Notes under the pieces: generated by a model
Seen by the model: the letters and a program-made list of their open reading frames with translations, nothing else
Told to the model about the DNA's origin: nothing
The model's database searches: none
Origin: a virus
Virus record (IMG/VR): IMGVR_UViG_3300031885_000104
Coordinates: 1 to 25,580 of that record
DNA: 25,580 bases
Direction: 5' to 3' (one strand)
Shown: piece after piece, positions 10,034 through 24,552 of the stretch
How positions within the stretch are numbered: position 1 is the stretch's first letter
Layout of the letters: the number at the start of each line of letters is the position of its first letter
Program-made: the position numbers and the translations under genes

Positions 10034-11229
10034 GCGAGTGCCTCGATCTTCTCGGGATCTACCGGCGCAACCTTCGGCACCTTCAGCAGTCCTTCGAGTT
10101 CGGCGAGTACCGGCTTCCAGTAGGTCTCGGTCACCACGTCGGCGTCATAGTTGAGCGCGAACGCCCGCGCCTCACGGCGGATGCGGTCGGAGACGTGGTA
10201 GGAGCGCTCCATCGCGGCGGCGAGTTCGGAGACGATGACCCGGCCGTAGTAACTCTTCTGCCGCTCGTCCCAGAAAGGTTCGGTAGGAACCAGCCAGCCG
10301 GGGCCGGCGAGTTCGGGCATCGACGTGTTGTCGGCCACGATCACCGGGACACCGCACGCCTGAGCCTCAACTATGGGGAGGCCGAACCCCTCGCCGTAGG
10401 ACGGATTCACGAGCACGTCCATCGCCGAGTAGATGGCCGCCATCTCCTTCGGCGGTACTTCTCCCAGGGCGTAGGCCATCTGGTCGATGTAGACGATGTC
10501 CTTCTCCGCTATCCCGCAGGAGCGCGCTATGAAGTCGAGGTCGCAGCCCTGTCGGGTGCGGTTGCGGATCGTGTGCAGGTACATCACCGCCGACGGTCGC
10601 TTCTCCTTGAACTTGGCGAAGGCCTGGAACACCTCGGGGAAGGCTTTGCGGGGCGGCGCGTCCCCGATGTTGGCCGCGACCATCCCCACCACGAAGGCAT
10701 CTTCGGGCAGGCCGAGCGCTTTGCGGATACGCGCCTTGTCCTCGTGCGGCTTGAACACCTCGGTCTCGACGCCGTGCGGGACGTAGAACGGTTTCAGTCC
10801 CTGGTCCTCGAGCATCCGCTGGCCGAACCGCGACATGGCGATCGGCACGGCGCCGGTCCGCTTGAAGTAGGCGAGGACGGCCGGCGGTACGGGGTCGTGG
10901 TCTACCGGACACCACGAGGCGACGTGCATCTCCCGCAGCGTCGGGGAGGTGAGCGTCCACACGTCCTGCAGGGTGATGATCCACCCGGCGTTGCGATCCC
11001 CGCAGAAGTGGTGCAACGCGAACGCCGAGAGGACGTCGTTCCCCCACACATCCATCCCCGACGGATAGATGGGGATGCCTTCCCATTCCAGCGGCCCGCC
11101 CTGCAGTCCGTAGAAGGCCAGGATGGCGAACGGATTGCCGAGGGCGGCTAGGCGGTGACAGAAGGTGCGGGTCTGCTGTCCGTAACCAGAGTTCGACCAG
11201 GGGGAGTTGCTCGACCAAAAGATTCTCAT
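10030..11229 (-). CDS. Glycosyltransferase family 4 (GT-B fold)
   Basis: The ATG ending at 11229 (MRIFWSSNSPWSNSGYG) gives 399 aa and overlaps the HNH stop as ATGA, with GGAGG ten bases upstream. The frame continues upstream inside the HNH gene but has no use there. GT-B signs are the N-terminal WSNSGYGQQTRTF, the interdomain PHGVETEVFKP (about residues 151-161) and the retaining E-x7-E motif with E280 and E288 in YGEGFGLPIVEAQ. The enzyme would add a nucleotide-sugar residue to an unknown acceptor. It pairs with the downstream GT2 gene, so the two probably act on one pathway. Confidence 0.9.
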   Translation of the reverse strand: MRIFWSSNSPWSNSGYGQQTRTFCHRLAALGNPFAILAFYGLQGGPLEWEGIPIYPSGMDVWGNDVLSAFALHHFCGDRNAGWIITLQDVWTLTSPTLREMHVASWCPVDHDPVPPAVLAYFKRTGAVPIAMSRFGQRMLEDQGLKPFYVPHGVETEVFKPHEDKARIRKALGLPEDAFVVGMVAANIGDAPPRKAFPEVFQAFAKFKEKRPSAVMYLHTIRNRTRQGCDLDFIARSCGIAEKDIVYIDQMAYALGEVPPKEMAAIYSAMDVLVNPSYGEGFGLPIVEAQACGVPVIVADNTSMPELAGPGWLVPTEPFWDERQKSYYGRVIVSELAAAMERSYHVSDRIRREARAFALNYDADVVTETYWKPVLAELEGLLKVPKVAPVDPEKIEALA

Positions 11230-11831
11230 GCCGGCGTCACCTCCTGTCGCCCGTGAGCGCGGGCGTGACAGAGCCAGCAGAGCACGGCCAGATTCGCCCT
11301 CTCGTTGTTCAACTTGTTGCCGTCTGCGTGGTGAACATGGAGGCGTGTCCCCCACCTAGATAAGCGGAGTCCACACCATTCGCAGGTCCACTTCGCCGAC
11401 TCGCGCATCTCGCGAGCCACGACTTTCCAGTCTGGTGAATAAGGCCAAGCGGCAACGCCGCCTTTCCACGCGGGATTACGTGAGCCCATCTGAAGACCTC
11501 GGTGAGATTCGCTAGCATCTCGCGCCGAGATGCCGAACTTCCGCAGGAACTTGAAGATGACGCTCTCGGTCACGCCAAACAGCCGGGCGATCTCAGCGGC
11601 CGACTGGCGCTGGGACATGTAGGGACGCCGAAGCCACTCCGGGTCTTTGTAGGCTGCGGGGCGACGATAGTGGCCGGACAGATAGACCCGCCAGCGACAT
11701 TTGCTCGTATTCCAACCTACAAGAGCGCCGCATCCACACTTACACGTCGGTTGAGGCTTACGCCTCTCGGCAAGGCGCTCTTCCAGCGGCCGGGCGTTCT
11801 GCCGTCCAGCGTAAGGTCCGCGTTGAGCCAC
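11226..11831 (-). CDS. HNH homing-type endonuclease
   Basis: A 201-aa protein with three parts. Residues about 30-36 hold a Cys cluster (CKCGCG). Residues about 77-101 form a helix-turn-helix (AEIARLFGVTESVIFKFLRK). The HNH nuclease lies at 145-195, with zinc ligands C150, C153, C185 and C188 and the catalytic HVHH at 165-168. Free-standing HNH genes of this shape are common between phage structural genes and act as mobile nucleases. It sits between a capsid-associated gene and the glycosyltransferases. Confidence 0.85.
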   Translation of the reverse strand: MAQRGPYAGRQNARPLEERLAERRKPQPTCKCGCGALVGWNTSKCRWRVYLSGHYRRPAAYKDPEWLRRPYMSQRQSAAEIARLFGVTESVIFKFLRKFGISARDASESHRGLQMGSRNPAWKGGVAAWPYSPDWKVVAREMRESAKWTCEWCGLRLSRWGTRLHVHHADGNKLNNERANLAVLCWLCHARAHGRQEVTPA

Positions 11832-11857: not shown

Positions 11858-12103
11858 TTACGTCGATGGCGGCGGGGTGACTTCTAGTTCGGCTGGGCCG
11901 ACCTGCCTCACGCGCGCCTTGCGCTTCTCTTCCGGCGCGGCGGTCGCCTGCTCCACCTCGAAGGTAGCCTTGAGCGGCTCCCAATACTCGGGCGGCGTCG
12001 CGGCGACGAGCGGGTGTGACTCGTCCACCCGCGTCTGTCCCTTCTGGACGTTGTAGACGGTGCCAGCGATCTCAACCTGGCATGACTCCTTGGCTACGAG
12101 CAT
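11858..12103 (-). CDS. Small capsid-associated hypothetical protein
   Basis: The ATG ending at 12103 has GGGGAGAGGAG ahead and gives 81 aa (MLVAKESCQVEIAGTVYNVQ). It has a short beta hairpin, then KGQTRVDESHPLVAATPPEYW, and a charged Lys/Arg tail with Pro at the end. Small proteins of this type (K-G-x-T-R-V..HPLV) follow the capsid gene in many actinobacterial phages. Their role in head completion is unproven. The longer frame to 12319 runs through the promoter region of the plus-strand island and is rejected. Confidence 0.68.
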   Translation of the reverse strand: MLVAKESCQVEIAGTVYNVQKGQTRVDESHPLVAATPPEYWEPLKATFEVEQATAAPEEKRKARVRQVGPAELEVTPPPST

Positions 12104-12148: not shown

Positions 12149-12177
12149 TTGCGTTACCTGGAAAGGGGTGCTAAAGT
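12149..12177 (+). promoter_or_regulatory. Sigma-70-like promoter of the plus-strand island
   Basis: TTGCGT (12149-12154), a 17-base spacer and TAAAGT (12172-12177). The start of transcription would be near 12184, so the GGCCAAGAGGAG repeat would lie at the very 5' end of the RNA. Confidence 0.55.
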
Positions 12178-12185
12178 CCGGGCTA

Positions 12186-12204
12186 GGCCAAGAGGAGGGA
12201 CGGA
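12186..12204 (+). repeat. Left copy of 19-bp inverted repeat flanking the island
   Basis: GGCCAAGAGGAGGGACGGA. The reverse complement of 13310-13328 matches it at 18 of 19 bases. About 37 bases further on, AGGGGAGCAT (12241-12250) also recurs inverted at 13284-13293. CCGGGCTAGG occurs at both ends in direct orientation (12178-12187 and 13341-13350). Shared blocks in this pattern suggest duplicated control sequences or the ends of a mobile cassette. Confidence 0.6.
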
Positions 12205-12278
12205 GAGCCTTCCGCAGCACCCGCCTCCTGCTCGCTCCAGAGGGGAGCATGGCCTGGAGTGGAAAGGGGGTAGCCCCC

Positions 12279-12953
12279 ATGGCTACCAAGCTCAAGACCC
12301 CTGCCGGGGTCGGTGTCACCGTTCCAAACGAGGAGTCGTTCTGGGATGACTCCCCGATCGCGCAGCCCTACTCGGTGGAGTTCACCATCGAGGGCATCAG
12401 GGACTACCTGTTCAACAGGTACGACGTCCCCATCGACCCGGACGAGCTGAAGGGCCAGAACAAGGCCAAGACACCCGGGACGATGCTCCACCTCGACTCG
12501 GACGGGCACTTGGCAGCCCGCACCGTTGCCCTGTGGAACGCCGTGGTCTCTGCCGGCAAGTACCGCCAGAACCCCCGCAGCAAGCGCGGTAGCTTCGCCA
12601 CGGTCCTGAAGGAGGCCATCGAGATCGAGGGCCTGGACGACAGGCACCCGGACCTCCTGACCTTCATCAGCCCGACCGGGAAGCCCTACGGCAACTTCGA
12701 GTACGAGTTCACGGCTCGGACGAAGAAGTCGGGGGCCTTCGCTGGCTACGTGACCAAGGTCCGTCCGGCGATCCACGCGGGATGGATGCTGAGCGGCCGG
12801 GTCGTCGTCCTGCTGCCCGAGTACGTCAATATCCCGCAACTCCACGAGGCGTTCGCCATGGCTGGCCGCTTCGGCGGCATCGGCGACGGACGAACGGGCG
12901 GACTCGGGTTCGGCCGGTTCCTCGTCCGGCGATTCGAGGCGGCCGAAGTCTGA
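12279..12953 (+). CDS. Hypothetical protein with RAMP-like glycine-rich C-terminus
   Basis: From the ATG at 12279 (MATKLKTPAGVGVTVPNEES) the product has 224 aa. A second in-frame ATG at 12249 has a better-placed GAGGGGAG, but its ten extra codons are unlike the rest in base use. The 12279 site is preceded by GGGGGTAGCCCCC, a hairpin that could hide its ribosome site. The protein has an N-terminal strand (YSVEFTIEGIRDYLFNRYD), a helix with RTVALWNAVVSAGKYRQNP, and a C-terminus of GRFGGIGDGRTGGLGFGRF. That last segment recalls the glycine-rich loop of the RAMP superfamily, and a family of unannotated phage proteins ends with GIGD.R..FGRF. The RAMP link is inference. It is the only gene of the island. 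Confidence 0.78.
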   Translation: MATKLKTPAGVGVTVPNEESFWDDSPIAQPYSVEFTIEGIRDYLFNRYDVPIDPDELKGQNKAKTPGTMLHLDSDGHLAARTVALWNAVVSAGKYRQNPRSKRGSFATVLKEAIEIEGLDDRHPDLLTFISPTGKPYGNFEYEFTARTKKSGAFAGYVTKVRPAIHAGWMLSGRVVVLLPEYVNIPQLHEAFAMAGRFGGIGDGRTGGLGFGRFLVRRFEAAEV

Positions 12954-13000
12954 GCCGCTAGATGGTCTGGCCCTGGGCCAACAGGACCAGGCCACGTAGC

Positions 13001-13120
13001 GGAATGGACTAGAGGGGAACGCATCGGAAAGGAGGGGTGCGGAATGGCAAGGACCGGACTGGACGGGACCGGACTGGAGCGGAAGGGAGTGGAGAGGAAC
13101 GGAATGCAACGCAACGGAAC
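13001..13120 (+). repeat. Degenerate GGANN pentamer array 1 (24 units)
   Basis: Read in blocks of five from 13001, 24 units stay in exact register. Most begin GG and most of those GGA: ggaat, ggact, ggaac, ggaaa, ggagg, ggacc, ggacg, ggagc, ggaag, ggagt, ggaga. Runs such as ggacc ggact ggacg ggacc ggact have no interruption. The period is not a multiple of three, so it is not shaped by a protein repeat. GG tracts every five bases could form two-layer G-quadruplexes in the plus strand or in the RNA that follows the RAMP-like gene. Confidence 0.8.
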
Positions 13121-13132
13121 CTGATTCTGGTT

Positions 13133-13173
13133 CTGCGGCCGAGCCTCGCCTTTCACTCGAGACTCGGCCGCAG
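13133..13173 (+). repeat. Perfect 11-bp hairpin between the two pentamer arrays
   Basis: CTGCGGCCGAG (13133-13143) and its exact complement CTCGGCCGCAG (13163-13173), with 19 bases between. The hairpin lies centrally, and the phase of the GGA units differs by two bases across it. Position suggests one structured RNA or DNA element with the two arrays. Confidence 0.75.
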
Positions 13174-13270
13174 GATCGGAGCGGAGTGGAGTGGACTGGA
13201 AAGGCAGGGAGAGCGGCGGATTGGACGGGAGTGGACTTGAGTGGAACGGAGGGGATAGGGATGGACCGGA
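13171..13270 (+). repeat. Degenerate NNGGA pentamer array 2 (20 units)
   Basis: In blocks of five from 13171, 20 units in register mostly end in GGA: cagga, tcgga, gcgga, gtgga, gtgga, ctgga, aggga, gcgga, ttgga, cggga, gtgga, acgga, gggga, atgga, ccgga. The last two bases before GGA vary freely. It continues array 1 beyond the hairpin on the same strand. Confidence 0.8.
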
Positions 13271-13292
13271 CCTCGGAGCGTTATGCTCCCCT

Positions 13293-13366
13293 AGCACCCC
13301 TAGTCATGGTCCGTCTCTCCTCTTGGCCGAGTAGAGATAGCCGGGCTAGGGGTGCTTCTTTCTTTG
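13293..13366 (+). terminator. Long-stem terminator-like RNA at the end of the island
   Basis: AGCACCCCTAG (13293-13303) pairs perfectly with CTAGGGGTGCT (13346-13356). The enclosed 42 bases contain an inner TCTCT/AGAGA pairing. On the plus strand the stem is followed by TCTTTCTTT, a T-rich tail, so it may end transcription of the RAMP-like gene and arrays. The right copy of the 19-bp inverted repeat lies in the loop, so this could also be a regulatory RNA. Confidence 0.55.
13310..13328 (-). repeat. Right copy of 19-bp inverted repeat flanking the island
   Basis: On the minus strand this reads GGCCAAGAGGAGAGACGGA, one base different from 12186-12204. The two copies face each other across about 1.1 kb that holds the RAMP-like gene and the pentamer arrays. 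Confidence 0.6.
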
Positions 13367-13375
13367 GCTTGGGGC

Positions 13376-13407
13376 AGGATGGGGGGCGCGAAATCGCCCC
13401 CCATCCT
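13376..13407. terminator. Strong 13-bp hairpin after the capsid gene
   Basis: AGGATGGGGGGCG (13376-13388) pairs perfectly with CGCCCCCCATCCT (13395-13407) around the loop CGAAAT. It begins 12 bases after the capsid stop codon at 13420. No T run follows on either strand, so it may be a bidirectional or factor-dependent stop, or an RNA end-protecting stem. Confidence 0.7.
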
Positions 13408-13419
13408 TAGGTATTACGA

Positions 13420-14847
13420 TCAGCCTGTGACCAGAACCCTGAAACTGTCTGCGTTCAGGATCTGGGAGGAGTTGCGCCACATGGCGTAAACACCCCTCTG
13501 ACCTGTCGGGAAGTTCCCCGTCCCGCCGAACAGATGCGGAATCAGGTCAATCGCCATCCCCACGCGGTCCACGATCAGGAACTGCTGGAAGTCCCCCATG
13601 CACATGATCTTCTGACCGGTCGTGAGCGCCGACGCCATCGCCGAGCACTCGTAAGCCGGGTATCCGATCAACTCAGGCGGCTGTCCATCAGTCAGGCGCA
13701 CCCACAGCGAGGCGCCGCCGTACGTGTCGAGCTGGCGGACCTTGTTGAAGATGAACTTGTTCCCGATGATCTTGGCACGCGGGCGGCTCCGAGGCGGAAC
13801 GCCTTCCTCGAGCTTGTAGAGGTCCGCCACCGCGAACGCGGCAGAACCCCCAGCCGTCACGACGCTCGTGCCGCATCCGGTGATGATCCCCTGCGGCTTC
13901 GCAGGGATGCCGGTGCCGGTCACGAACTGCGTGGCTTCGAGTTCGTCCTTCGCCTCCTGAAGCAGGCGCGAGAGGTCGGCCCGAAGGCCGCTGTAGTCCT
14001 GGTCGAGTTCAATCGAGAACGGAACGAACGCCTGCGCCCGCAGGGCCGTGACTTCCGGCTGAACGAGCGTCGGCGCGTTGTCCGTCGCCTCAGCAGCCTC
14101 CGTCGCGTATGCGGCCGTGACGCCAGCCGACGTAACGCCCTTCCAGGTGTTCGTGACGATTGACTCCACCCGGCTGATTGCCCTAAGCGGGTTCACCGCA
14201 CCGTTGCTAGTGCCGATGATGGTCGGGTCGATCGTGTAAGGAACGAGCACGTCGCCTTCCGTGCCGGTCGTGAGCGCACGCTCGAGGGCCTGCTGCTCCG
14301 GTGCCGTCAGGACCCGGTTGGGGTTCTGAACCCTCTTCCAGAACGCCCGCTCATACACCGGGTTACCGGTGAGAACGATGCGCCGTGCGAGGTCGGCGTC
14401 CGGCGTGTCGATCGTGTCGACGAGCCTCGCGGCCCTGGTCTGGAAGTCCTCTTTGGACCCCACTGCCGGGTACTTCGAGGTCTCGATGACCCGCATCGCA
14501 CGGTCCCGAACCTCACGGGCCATGCCTTCGCGGTCGGAAACCGATCCACGGATGGTCGAGAGGTCGTAGGGGCTGCCCTTGTCCTTCTGGACACTGACGT
14601 TGAACTCCTCGAACCCCGCCTCCTTGGCGGTTCCGTCAACCTGGGCCTTCTCCAAGTCGGCGTGCCGCTGCTTGGACGCCACGATCTTCGCGTCGTTGCC
14701 AGCGAACTCAGCCTTGAGTCCGTCCCATTCCTTCTGCTCGTCCCCGCCAAGCAGGTCCGTACCGGCCTCGGCGTCGATCGCCGCAAGCCGCACCCGGATC
14801 TCATCCTGGCGTGCGAGCAGTTCGTCTAGTGACAATGTTCCTGCCAC
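13420..14847 (-). CDS. Nested start: delta domain plus major capsid protein alone
   Basis: Inside the fusion, Val378 is encoded by GTG at 14847-14845. It is preceded at six bases by AAAGGAG (14854-14860), the best Shine-Dalgarno in the gene. Translation from it gives 475 aa beginning MAGTLSLDELLARQDEIRVR, exactly at the start of the coiled-coil scaffold domain. This would give the excess of capsid over protease that assembly needs. It is a prediction from the sequence; the full fusion is equally open. Confidence 0.65.
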   Translation of the reverse strand: MAGTLSLDELLARQDEIRVRLAAIDAEAGTDLLGGDEQKEWDGLKAEFAGNDAKIVASKQRHADLEKAQVDGTAKEAGFEEFNVSVQKDKGSPYDLSTIRGSVSDREGMAREVRDRAMRVIETSKYPAVGSKEDFQTRAARLVDTIDTPDADLARRIVLTGNPVYERAFWKRVQNPNRVLTAPEQQALERALTTGTEGDVLVPYTIDPTIIGTSNGAVNPLRAISRVESIVTNTWKGVTSAGVTAAYATEAAEATDNAPTLVQPEVTALRAQAFVPFSIELDQDYSGLRADLSRLLQEAKDELEATQFVTGTGIPAKPQGIITGCGTSVVTAGGSAAFAVADLYKLEEGVPPRSRPRAKIIGNKFIFNKVRQLDTYGGASLWVRLTDGQPPELIGYPAYECSAMASALTTGQKIMCMGDFQQFLIVDRVGMAIDLIPHLFGGTGNFPTGQRGVYAMWRNSSQILNADSFRVLVTG

Positions 14848-15978: not shown

Positions 15979-16093
15979 GGGACATCACCTTTCGTTTCTT
16001 CTGTTTGCGTTTGCGGGGTTTGCGAACCTTGCGTGGCTTGCTTCCCGGCGTCCCCAACAGGGGTGCCGCAGACTTGAGCGTTAGTGGCGTCAG
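15968..16093 (-). CDS. Possible 41-aa highly basic peptide (CTG start)
   Basis: Between portal and protease a short frame encodes a strongly basic peptide with KPRKVRKPRKRKQKKRK near its C-terminus. It has no ATG or GTG. A CTG at 16093 overlaps the portal stop as CTGA, mimicking the ATGA and GTGA junctions found elsewhere in the window. A TTG further in is the other choice. Its stop overlaps the protease ATG by eleven bases. A basic peptide could bind nucleic acid, but there is no recognised family, and the weak start makes this doubtful. Confidence 0.35.
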   Translation of the reverse strand: MTPLTLKSAAPLLGTPGSKPRKVRKPRKRKQKKRKVMSHAN

Positions 16094-18495
16094 TCCTCGG
16101 TCCCGGCGAGTTGCTTGGCCACGAGTGCCGCGAGTGCGCGCCCAGCCTGATACGCAGGCGACGGCACGCTCGGGTTCGGCGGCTGCAACTGCACCGAGTA
16201 GAGGCCCGTGTGCATGTGCAAGAGCCTAAGAAAGTCATCCGACGTAATGGCATCGATGACGGCATCCGGCTGGAACCCTGCATCGACGAGTTGGCGGATG
16301 CATGCCGCCTGCACCTGCTGGATGGCTGCGGCGTCCTTCTGGTCCTCCTGCAAGAACGGGATGTCGCGGTCGTCGTACCAGAGTCTGGCATCGGACGGCA
16401 CGGTGACGATCTTGGCGTAGCTACCACAGGCGTTGCGCCACAGTGGCCTCATGGTGATGTCACCGAGGCGGCGACACGCCTGTCCGTAGTTCGAGTATGT
16501 CGCGGACTGAAGACCCTCAGAGAGACCAACGACGATGGGTGGCACCCCGGCCGCTGCGGCGATGCGCGTGTTGTGAGTCGGGACGAAGCCCTCGCCGGCG
16601 AGGAACAGGTGATCGGCGGTATCTACCGCGATGCACCGCACGGGCACGGAAGGCACGGGCTCAATGCTCACGACGGAGCGGTTCCGCACGTGAACGGCGG
16701 TAGTGCAACGATCGGCCTTCCGACGCAGCAGGAACGGAACCATCTCCGGATCAGCGCGGAACGTGACCCTCCATGTCTCGCCCGTGCGCGAACGCAGTTC
16801 CTCCTTGCGACTAAGTGTTGCCCGATATCCGAGGCTGCGCGCCAACTCCGCGACCTGGCGAGCCAGCCTCTCCCACTTCGAGGAGAACTCGCACGTCTCG
16901 CGGCCGCGATGCCCAACGGTTCCATCCGTATCCATCAGGCCGCGCAACAGGTCCAGCCGCTGGTCAGTCGATGCCCGCAGGTAGTCCGTGGGAATGTGCT
17001 TGTCGCCGAGAACCCCAAGCGCCTTTAGTCCCGCTAGGAGACCACCGGGAAGACCGATCACATCGACCTTGCCTGGAACCGTTGCCCACTGCGTCACGGT
17101 GTAACCGCGGGCCTGTACCTCACGCGCAATCTCTGCTAGGTCGTCCGGTGCCCCACAGATAGCGGCACCTGCGGTCTGTCCATCACCAAGCCACGCGCCA
17201 AGAACATAGGGATCAACGAGCAGGTCGCGGTACTTTAGGTCGAGCACGGATGGCGCAGGCACCGCGACTCGGTTTCCGCCCACTCCGTTGTTGAACGGCC
17301 GCAGGGTGAGTTCACGCAGGGCTTCGGTCGTATAGGTCTCTTCGGCCCGGTTGGCTGAACCCTGGTCAATCGCAAGCCACAGGTGCCCCGAATCGGCGAC
17401 AATAGCCGTGCGATCCTTGAACGTGACCCGATAGCAGTCGCGTCCGAGGTGAATAGGCGATGTTCCGGTCACCCGTGCAGGCCGACCGTCCCGGCCGAGC
17501 ACCTCGTCGCCAATCGAGACCTCGCCCATGGTCGTCCAGCCGGTGGGTGTCGGGATTGGCGTGTCCAGAGCGAGCGGTTCGCCTGCGCCCTGTACCACCT
17601 TGAAGTCCATCTGCTTGAAGTCAGCACCAACGACCGTCGTGTCCGCGCCGCCGGCGAGGTAGAGCGTCTTGTAGGCGTTCTCTACGCCCTTGTGGCCCTT
17701 CTCGAAGACCTCGATCCATTCCTTGAACTTGTCGGGGGACTTGATGTCCAGCTTCACGACTAGGTTCGGGGTGGCCCCGTTGTCGAAGAACTTGAGCTTG
17801 TGGCTCGTCGCCGCGTTGTCCGACATGATCTCCCGCAGAACCGGCGTGAGCCACGACATGCCACGATAGGAGTAGAGCGGGTCGGGTATCGGTGCGAAGT
17901 GAACGACCTCATCGACGCCGAGGATGACTGGTTCCTTGCCGCTGGCGATGCCGCCGGGAATGTAGGCGTAGCCGACCGCTCGAGCGTCTAGATCCCCTAC
18001 CGGAGCAACCTGGATACCACCGGGACCGCTGGAAGAGCCGAGGATGATGGTCGTCCAGTCCGGCCTCATGCGCTGCAGGCCGTCCCGGCGGCGTGTCACA
18101 AAGAAGTTGCCCGCGAGGTCGGCGTCCTGGATCGTGCGGGTGAGCAGATCCCCAGTCGTGCCATTCGGCCACGGCTTCTCAAGGATGGCTAGGTCTGAGT
18201 TCCCAAACAGGTTGCCGGGCCGTCCACCGTGCATCTGTTGGAACTGGAACCGGGCCTCCGAGAAGAGCATTAGGCGGACCAACATGCACGCAGCGATGAC
18301 ACCGTTCCGTTTCAGGATGCCTTCGACGTAGCCGCTGAAGTTCTGCTCTATCTCCTCCTTGTCCCCTTGGAGCGTCTGGTTGAGCATGAACGGGTACGTG
18401 TTGCCGCCGTATTTGAAGTAGGAGACCCACTCGTCGAGCGAGAGTGACGAACGCTCCTCGGCGGGTTTCAGTAGGGATCGGATGAGGTTCGTCAC
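16090..18495 (-). CDS. Portal protein interrupted by a class 3 intein
   Basis: A frame of 801 aa with GTG start (MTNLIRSLLKPAEERSS), overlapping the previous stop as GTGA and with GGAGG seven bases ahead. Residues 1-306 and 643-801 together make a 465-aa portal of normal size, which joins as QGAGE|TRIAAAAG. The portal parts include GYVEGILKRNGVIAACMLVR and SWLTPVLREIMSDNAATSHK, typical of the HK97-type portal that forms the dodecameric DNA gate. Residues 307-642 are an intein. The host precursor needs splicing for a working portal. Confidence 0.93.
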   Translation of the reverse strand: MTNLIRSLLKPAEERSSLSLDEWVSYFKYGGNTYPFMLNQTLQGDKEEIEQNFSGYVEGILKRNGVIAACMLVRLMLFSEARFQFQQMHGGRPGNLFGNSDLAILEKPWPNGTTGDLLTRTIQDADLAGNFFVTRRRDGLQRMRPDWTTIILGSSSGPGGIQVAPVGDLDARAVGYAYIPGGIASGKEPVILGVDEVVHFAPIPDPLYSYRGMSWLTPVLREIMSDNAATSHKLKFFDNGATPNLVVKLDIKSPDKFKEWIEVFEKGHKGVENAYKTLYLAGGADTTVVGADFKQMDFKVVQGAGEPLALDTPIPTPTGWTTMGEVSIGDEVLGRDGRPARVTGTSPIHLGRDCYRVTFKDRTAIVADSGHLWLAIDQGSANRAEETYTTEALRELTLRPFNNGVGGNRVAVPAPSVLDLKYRDLLVDPYVLGAWLGDGQTAGAAICGAPDDLAEIAREVQARGYTVTQWATVPGKVDVIGLPGGLLAGLKALGVLGDKHIPTDYLRASTDQRLDLLRGLMDTDGTVGHRGRETCEFSSKWERLARQVAELARSLGYRATLSRKEELRSRTGETWRVTFRADPEMVPFLLRRKADRCTTAVHVRNRSVVSIEPVPSVPVRCIAVDTADHLFLAGEGFVPTHNTRIAAAAGVPPIVVGLSEGLQSATYSNYGQACRRLGDITMRPLWRNACGSYAKIVTVPSDARLWYDDRDIPFLQEDQKDAAAIQQVQAACIRQLVDAGFQPDAVIDAITSDDFLRLLHMHTGLYSVQLQPPNPSVPSPAYQAGRALAALVAKQLAGTED
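16570..17577 (-). other. Class 3 intein with LAGLIDADG homing endonuclease
   Basis: The intein spans residues 307-642 of the portal frame (336 aa). It starts with Pro (PLALDTPIPTPTGW) where class 1 inteins have Cys or Ser, and ends THN followed by Thr. It has the WCT triplet of class 3 inteins: Trp373 in block B (GHLWLAI), Cys621 in block F (VRCIAVDT) and Thr640 in block G (PTHN). Block F Cys is the nucleophile in that mechanism. Two LAGLIDADG motifs are intact, VLGAWLGDG (431-439) and LLRGLMDTDG (516-525), so the homing nuclease is probably active. The +1 residue is Thr643. Confidence 0.9.
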
Positions 18496-24116: not shown

Positions 24117-24146
24117 TTGCACCTCCGAACGCCTGACTGTCAATCG

Positions 24147-24217
24147 TCGCGGGTGCCGGATTCGGACCGGCGTCTCCAGGTTATGAGCCTGACAAGCTGC
24201 CCCTGCTCCAACCCGCA
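24147..24217 (-). tRNA. tRNA-Met (CAT)
   Basis: A 71-base tRNA without encoded CCA. The acceptor is TGCGGGT with ACCCGCG (U1-G72 wobble), D-stem GAGC/GCTT, and anticodon stem-loop TCAGG-CTCATAA-CCTGG. The T-arm GCCGG-TCCGAAT-CCGGC has C instead of U at position 55. The anticodon stem lacks three G-C pairs at 29-31, which argues against an initiator. An Ile-accepting CAU (lysidine) tRNA is not excluded. Confidence 0.85.
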
Positions 24218-24235
24218 GAACCAGCCGGAACTCCG

Positions 24236-24308
24236 AGTGATGGACGGGATTTGCACCCGCTTCCTCGTGGGCCACAACCACGCGCTCCGCTAGACGAGCA
24301 TCCATCAC
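24236..24308 (-). tRNA. tRNA-His (GTG)
   Basis: The acceptor GTGATGG pairs fully with CCATCAC. Read in the His register, the first G is G-1 opposite C73. D-stem GCTC/GAGC and anticodon loop TTGTGGC with stem CGTGG/CCACG are clear. The T-loop is TGCAAAT, with G at position 55 in place of U. No CCA is encoded. Confidence 0.87.
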
Positions 24309-24309
24309 G

Positions 24310-24361
24310 CCCAACCCCAGCCACTTCCTACGGGCGTGACCCCATCAACGGAAGGGTTGGG
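24310..24361 (-). repeat. Hairpin between tRNA-Ser and tRNA-His
   Basis: CCCAACCC (24310-24317) pairs with GGGTTGGG (24354-24361), and inside it TTCC/GGAA adds a second stem. It begins two bases after tRNA-His on the plus strand. It could be a processing signal or a decayed tRNA. The remainder of the gap to 24469 shows only another short stem, TCTCCC/GGGAGA near 24445-24466, and no gene. Confidence 0.4.
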
Positions 24362-24469
24362 AGGATTGCCTACAGTGCCGGTGTACCATCCGCACCGCCT
24401 AGAACGGGCCAGGTACCAGTAGCCGAAGCCGCTGGGTCGGTAATCTCCCCCAACCGGCAAGGGAGAGCG

Positions 24470-24552
24470 CGGTAGGCCGGGGAGTCGAACCCCGAGACCC
24501 TTTCGGGTCGGCCGGTTAGCAACCGGGTTGCTGTGCCGATGGCGAACCTACC
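24470..24552 (-). tRNA. tRNA-Ser (GCT) with long variable arm
   Basis: An 83-base class II tRNA. Acceptor GGTAGGT pairs with GCCTACC, and the discriminator is G. The anticodon loop is TTGCTAA (anticodon GCT, for AGC/AGT) on a CCGG stem. The variable arm GACCC-GAAA-GGGTC and the T-arm CGGGG-TTCGACT-CCCCG are canonical. The D-arm is poor: about 18 bases with no good stem. CCA is not encoded. Confidence 0.85.

Follow-up and report, generated by a model that had tools for sequence, protein, structure and literature searches.

A plus-strand island in a siphophage late operon

The DNA that we analysed, referred to here as the window, is a single viral record of 25,580 bases representing the late region of a siphophage, with genes for portal, capsid-protease fusion, terminase and tail proteins, mostly on the minus strand. 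The portal gene (16093–18495) includes a LAGLIDADG homing-endonuclease domain that is probably an intein, and three minus-strand tRNA genes (Met, His and Ser; 24146–24552) are present, two of which are detected by Rfam. Within this operon lies a plus-strand island (12149–13407) bordered by the capsid gene, which ends at 13420, and by the next minus-strand gene, an 81-aa gene starting at 12103 with an HNH endonuclease gene (11226–11831) just downstream of it. Since both of its neighbours are minus-strand genes, the island does run opposite to them, as had been noted in a first-pass annotation made from the letters alone. The promoter proposed there was not confirmed, as a sigma-70 scan of the island gave none, and by ORF listing the island holds no further plausible gene that might serve as an accessory vap gene.

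The island looks like an inserted cassette, because the related Rhodococcus phages REQ1 and Jflix2 and phage Madraxi have no opposite-strand island after their capsid-protease genes; the gap to the next same-strand gene is about 75 bp in REQ1 and Jflix2 and about 20 bp in Madraxi. Near the island's ends, a 22-bp inverted repeat (arms 12183–12204 and 13310–13331) matches at 20/22 positions without gaps, compared to 16/22 for the best of 60 shuffles; when the two ends were aligned locally with gaps allowed, the score did not exceed shuffles significantly. This repeat may be left over from mobility of the cassette, or it may pair the leader with the second of the RNA tails described below.

The island's single gene (12279–12953, plus strand) starts with an ATG at 12279 that is preceded by a purine-rich stretch, ends with a stop codon at 12951–12953 and encodes a protein of 224 aa. 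Two plus-strand arrays of GGANN pentamers follow it: array 1 (13001–13120) has 24 pentamers, 18 with an exact GGA, and array 2 (13173–13272) has 20, of which 16 are exact. These in-phase counts bear out the arrays of 24 and 20 degenerate pentamers seen at first pass. The third base is A in 22/24 and 17/20 pentamers, respectively. No other stretch of the window, whichever strand is read, has more than 4 GGA among 24 in-phase pentamers, and doublet shuffles of the array region (n=500) gave at most 7 of 24. Tandem Repeats Finder registers the arrays merely as weak, low-score repeats because the NN positions are variable.

RNA from 12954 to 13420 is predicted to fold 3.9 sd below its own shuffles, and structured regions, dissimilar to each other, lie downstream of both arrays. 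A plus-strand hairpin after array 1 (13126–13180; arms 13126–13148 and 13158–13180), whose final bases run into the beginning of array 2, is a candidate 3' tail of a first guide RNA, a role assigned by analogy to a published system (PMC13142463), and the structured region after array 2 (13273–13352, plus strand) is a candidate tail of a second. The hairpin had been described as perfect; this is true of an 11-bp core (CTGCGGCCGAG/CTCGGCCGCAG) but not of the whole arms, which are 83% complementary. A 13-bp plus-strand stem-loop at 13376–13407 (arms 13376–13388 and 13395–13407) is 100% complementary, as expected from the terminator-like stems noted earlier, but no U-tailed terminator was found there. 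It might terminate transcription of either the island or the capsid operon.

The island gene encodes a predicted Cas7-like RAMP protein

Given an alignment of 31 family sequences, AF2 predicted a confident fold for the island protein (pLDDT 83); the family alignment was needed, since the single sequence gave a pLDDT of 32. Among the PDB structural matches listed, 50/50 were Cas7-type RAMP chains, the best of those listed being Csm3 of type III-A (Z 12.3; best Foldseek E value 8e-7). Sequence comparisons pointed the same way: a family HMM from which the window had been left out matched the window gene with an E value of 3e-14, and one relative (L072) matched a Csm3 HMM by sequence (E 4e-5). The structure check thus upheld the initial description of the protein as RAMP-like and gave it a predicted Cas7/Csm3-like fold. 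It lent no support to the accompanying idea of Cas6-like hairpin binding or cutting, as the structural matches listed were Cas7 backbone subunits; Cas6 was absent among the 50 listed, although a family missing from that list is not thereby excluded.

The only database family found for the window protein was phrog_4652 (PHROGs, no function attached), matched weakly (E 0.004) by the window protein and with an E value of 3e-15 by its DSL-LC04 homologue. A protein query of IMG/VR gave no homologue, because the window gene is divergent, and PADLOC gave no match for the protein. No CRISPR array with identical repeats was among the repeats found in the window, and no other cas genes were seen there.

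Pentamer arrays recur beside this gene family

We searched IMG/VR for GGANN arrays by DNA pattern only, without reference to the gene. A RAMP homologue lay beside the array at 38/43 loci with diverse NN pairs vs 3/131 low-diversity loci (Fisher 3e-29), where the 43 and 131 loci include several near-copies and hence are not all independent. At the loci mapped, the arrays were on the gene's strand and often started a few bases past its stop codon. Across 2516 pentamers, positions 1–3 were 96–98% invariant and positions 4–5 nearly uniform. Homologues in isolated phages (SUSP1, wV8, Trine, LittleE, Saal and others) showed the same layout, with GGY replacing GGA: a GGYNN array accompanied every isolated-phage homologue examined except that of phiHSIC, for which no recognisable array was found.

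The first-pass annotation had hypothesized that the protein acts on the transcript of its own 3' region. The notion of a functional pairing stands, and it is supported, by sequence and by analogy, because the adjacency recurs at 38 of 43 loci and because the corresponding protein and RNA co-purify in published systems (PMC13142463). The notion of that RNA as a substrate most likely does not, for reasons given below.

The low-diversity single arrays of GGAAR pentamers were set aside as a separate class, 128/131 low-entropy loci being without a family gene. These loci (L010, L013, L019, L022, L031 and about 100 others) have single arrays of 7–10 GGAAR pentamers that come after short repeats such as TCACTGA or TCGACGA, carry no gene of this family and apparently represent a different element. 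At several other loci (L067, L135, L141, L147, L158 and L175) many arrays follow one another consecutively, 5–10 nt apart. A 521-aa spurious ORF lies opposite the arrays of L067 (minus strand, about 10500–11780); because the complement of GGANN cannot hold a stop codon, such long ORFs may be misannotated. At L120, L104 and L100, judged by reading alone, the family gene sits amid recombination-like genes (Cas4-like nuclease, Sak4/Erf-like and DUF669-like SSB).

The variable dinucleotides decode to capsid sequence

To decode the arrays, each NN pair was taken as codon positions 1 and 2, with one base skipped between pairs. Array 1 then reads [IM]LGTS[KN]GA[IM][KN]PLRPLA[RS]V[DE]T[IM]TTT, which is ILGTSNGAINPLRPLARVETITTT-like; the phage's own major capsid protein has IIGTSNGAVNPLRAISRVESIVTN at the corresponding internal stretch. 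Array 2 reads SAVVL[KN][RS][DE]A[FL]RVLVTG[stop/Y], resembling the capsid C-terminus together with its stop codon, where the own capsid ends in SSQILNADSFRVLVTG-stop. In six-frame comparisons against the whole window, guide 1 had a protein score of 88 (shuffles 33.7 ± 3.6) and guide 2 a score of 51 (shuffles 30.6 ± 3.5), each above all 2000 shuffles. For the correspondence to the own major capsid protein, z was about 14 for array 1 and about 6 for array 2, with flat controls.

At the DNA level, the best match to guide 1 in the whole window was in the own capsid gene (14150–14220, minus strand), with 34/48 guide bases matching (shuffles 25.9 ± 1.0). Only the one-base skip found the capsid gene; other skips gave nothing for guide 1. 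With the same skip, the best match to guide 2, 24/40, was at the capsid 3' end (13412–13470, minus strand), a score that alone is not above its own shuffles. No comparable decoding signal came from other codon phases, orders or array offsets, and the reverse complement of guide 1 gave a z of 3.3, a weak signal, at that same location.

The guides differ from the carrier's own capsid. Guide 1 shows eight residue differences, and 6/8 of these residues occur at that position in other capsid homologues; the DAFRVL of guide 2 is closer to REQ1 than to the own DSFRVL. Since just 34/48 guide bases match, the own site at 14150–14220 is probably spared.

A VIPR-type guide system as the best explanation

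VIPR (Viral Interference Programmable Repeat), as described in a 2026 preprint (PMC13142463; bioRxiv 2026.04.26.720920), consists of a RAMP protein, Vipr, and vrRNAs built from GGY/NN pentamers, the NN pairs of which recognise double-stranded DNA by a 1-nt skip code. The model phage is SUSP1, alongside a Pseudomonas fulva prophage; for the published systems, co-purification of Vipr and vrRNA, DNA binding and transcriptional repression are reported (PMC13142463). CRISPR RAMP effectors have been proposed to descend from VIPR, which is also put forward as a programmable DNA-recognition system of very small size. We consider it highly probable that the island is a VIPR-type RNA-guided system of a tailed phage, built on a GGA/NN scaffold instead of GGY/NN. 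Its protein belongs to the sequence family of SUSP1 Vipr, its pentamers combine a constant triplet with a hypervariable NN beside the gene, the 1-nt skip code fits the NN pairs in silico, and the system is phage-encoded with putative targets in related mobile elements.

It also departs from the published description in several ways. Its triplet is GGA, on which the preprint's main text is silent, although 'a related consensus' in a supplementary figure may cover it. Its arrays have 24 and 20 repeats, whereas published vrRNAs have 9–16; the window's arrays may hold overlapping guides. Published vrRNAs end in a structured, invariable 3' tail, while the window's two tails are unlike each other, and no vap gene was found in the island, an accessory gene that the preprint presents as typical without calling it universal (PMC13142463). 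Because of the GGA triplet, the repeat numbers, the missing accessory gene and the unlike tails, we class the island as a variant working like VIPR rather than a textbook member. The decoded target differs as well, being a capsid gene instead of the satellite or lysogeny regulators described in the preprint. As to class 1 CRISPR backbone subunits, the window protein resembles Cas7/Csm3 in its predicted fold and, presumably, in binding repeatedly along RNA, but it has only about 10% identity to them and a period of 5 nt rather than 6 nt. Unlike in class 1 CRISPR systems, its guide information would not be contiguous, and neither CRISPR repeats nor other cas genes were seen in the window.

Because the NN pairs decode to capsid-gene sequence, the RNA is most likely a guide read against DNA rather than a substrate. 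The gene, the arrays, the predicted fold, the recurrent association and the decoding are results of computation, whereas RNP formation, DNA binding and repression are carried over from the published VIPR work. In our reading, the RAMP protein would most likely oligomerise along the RNA with one subunit per pentamer, holding the GGA triplets while the NN pairs face outward. These pairs would then pair with target DNA, the skipped base being the codon wobble position. Between them, the guides would address the major capsid gene of a related competitor at an internal site and again at its 3' end, and binding at these sites would lead to repression of the gene or incapacitate the rival in some other way. 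The target is probably the capsid gene of a related or sibling phage, since the guides differ from the own capsid as a homologue would, with 6/8 homologue-like residues, and since the one viral contig matched by a pattern search (see below) carries a capsid homologue at the same site.

Alternatively, the guides could autoregulate the phage's own capsid gene during late expression, with mismatches tolerated. The own gene is after all the best whole-window match to guide 1, and guide 2 falls at its 3' end. We nevertheless regard this as improbable: the guides would have to tolerate 14/48 and 16/40 mismatches, most of the residues by which guide 1 departs from the own capsid are shared with other capsid homologues, unlike in random decay, and guide 2 is nearer to REQ1 than to its carrier. 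Less probable still is a Cas6-like protein that processes or binds the hairpin RNA and has no guide function. A RAMP fold is predicted and a hairpin does sit between the arrays, but the structural matches listed are Cas7-type (the absence of Cas6 from them being no exclusion), the NN positions hold decodable capsid sequence, and many array loci leave no room for a structured tail or hairpin because their linkers are just 5–10 nt. That the arrays are mere multivalent protein-binding sites, such as a sponge or TRAP-like ring, agrees with the invariant GGA and the near-random base composition of NN but is hardly credible, as freely drifting NN would yield neither homologues of the carrier's capsid with a stop codon in register nor the structural proteins decoded at another locus, L157 (see below). 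Specific candidates of this kind (ribosome or CsrA sponge, TRAP-like ring) were dropped once the NN pairs had been decoded.

Targets, guide turnover and scaffold switching

No exact guide target was found in IMG/VR or GTDB. A 9-NN pattern gave one viral match, where 33/48 guide bases fit the corresponding site of a capsid homologue. Three GTDB matches to the 9-NN pattern were rejected as targets, as none extends into a capsid gene, and searching the decoded peptides by tblastn and against Pfam and PHROGs was of no use because the peptides are too short. For most other GGA guides, no target was found within the small set of loci searched, and a skip test of 181 guides against about 3.5 Mb (forward and reverse strands) lacked power for all but the window. 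At the GGA locus L157, antisense-strand decoding of two guides gives homologues of that locus's own structural proteins, one head-closure-like (weak PHROG match, E 0.007) and one a tail protein (E 9e-51). Capsid, head-closure and tail genes as decoded targets suggest a role in conflict among close relatives, with self spared by divergence.

We lean, by a modest degree, towards a broader reading: GGA/NN would be a widespread branch of the VIPR code outside the preprint's main text, in which A and pyrimidine at the third position have switched at least three times and quickly replaced guides hit essential structural genes (capsid, head-closure and tail) in sibling phages. In a tree of 48 Viprs, GGA and GGY members are interleaved, and well supported branches force at least three switches; the window's own Vipr is on a long branch and its placement is unsure. 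The frequencies of GGA and GGY are not comparable, because the GGA loci came from a GGA pattern and the GGY loci from isolates. The occurrence of GGA across the tree suggests that the triplet read by the protein can change with the NN code staying the same, so that a comparison of GGA with GGY Viprs offers a test of triplet recognition. As to the guides themselves, two loci (L123 and L150) encode Viprs that are about 97% identical and yet have wholly different guides, which suggests that guides are replaced quickly, and another pair (L137 and L166) has some guides in common, with single-base changes.
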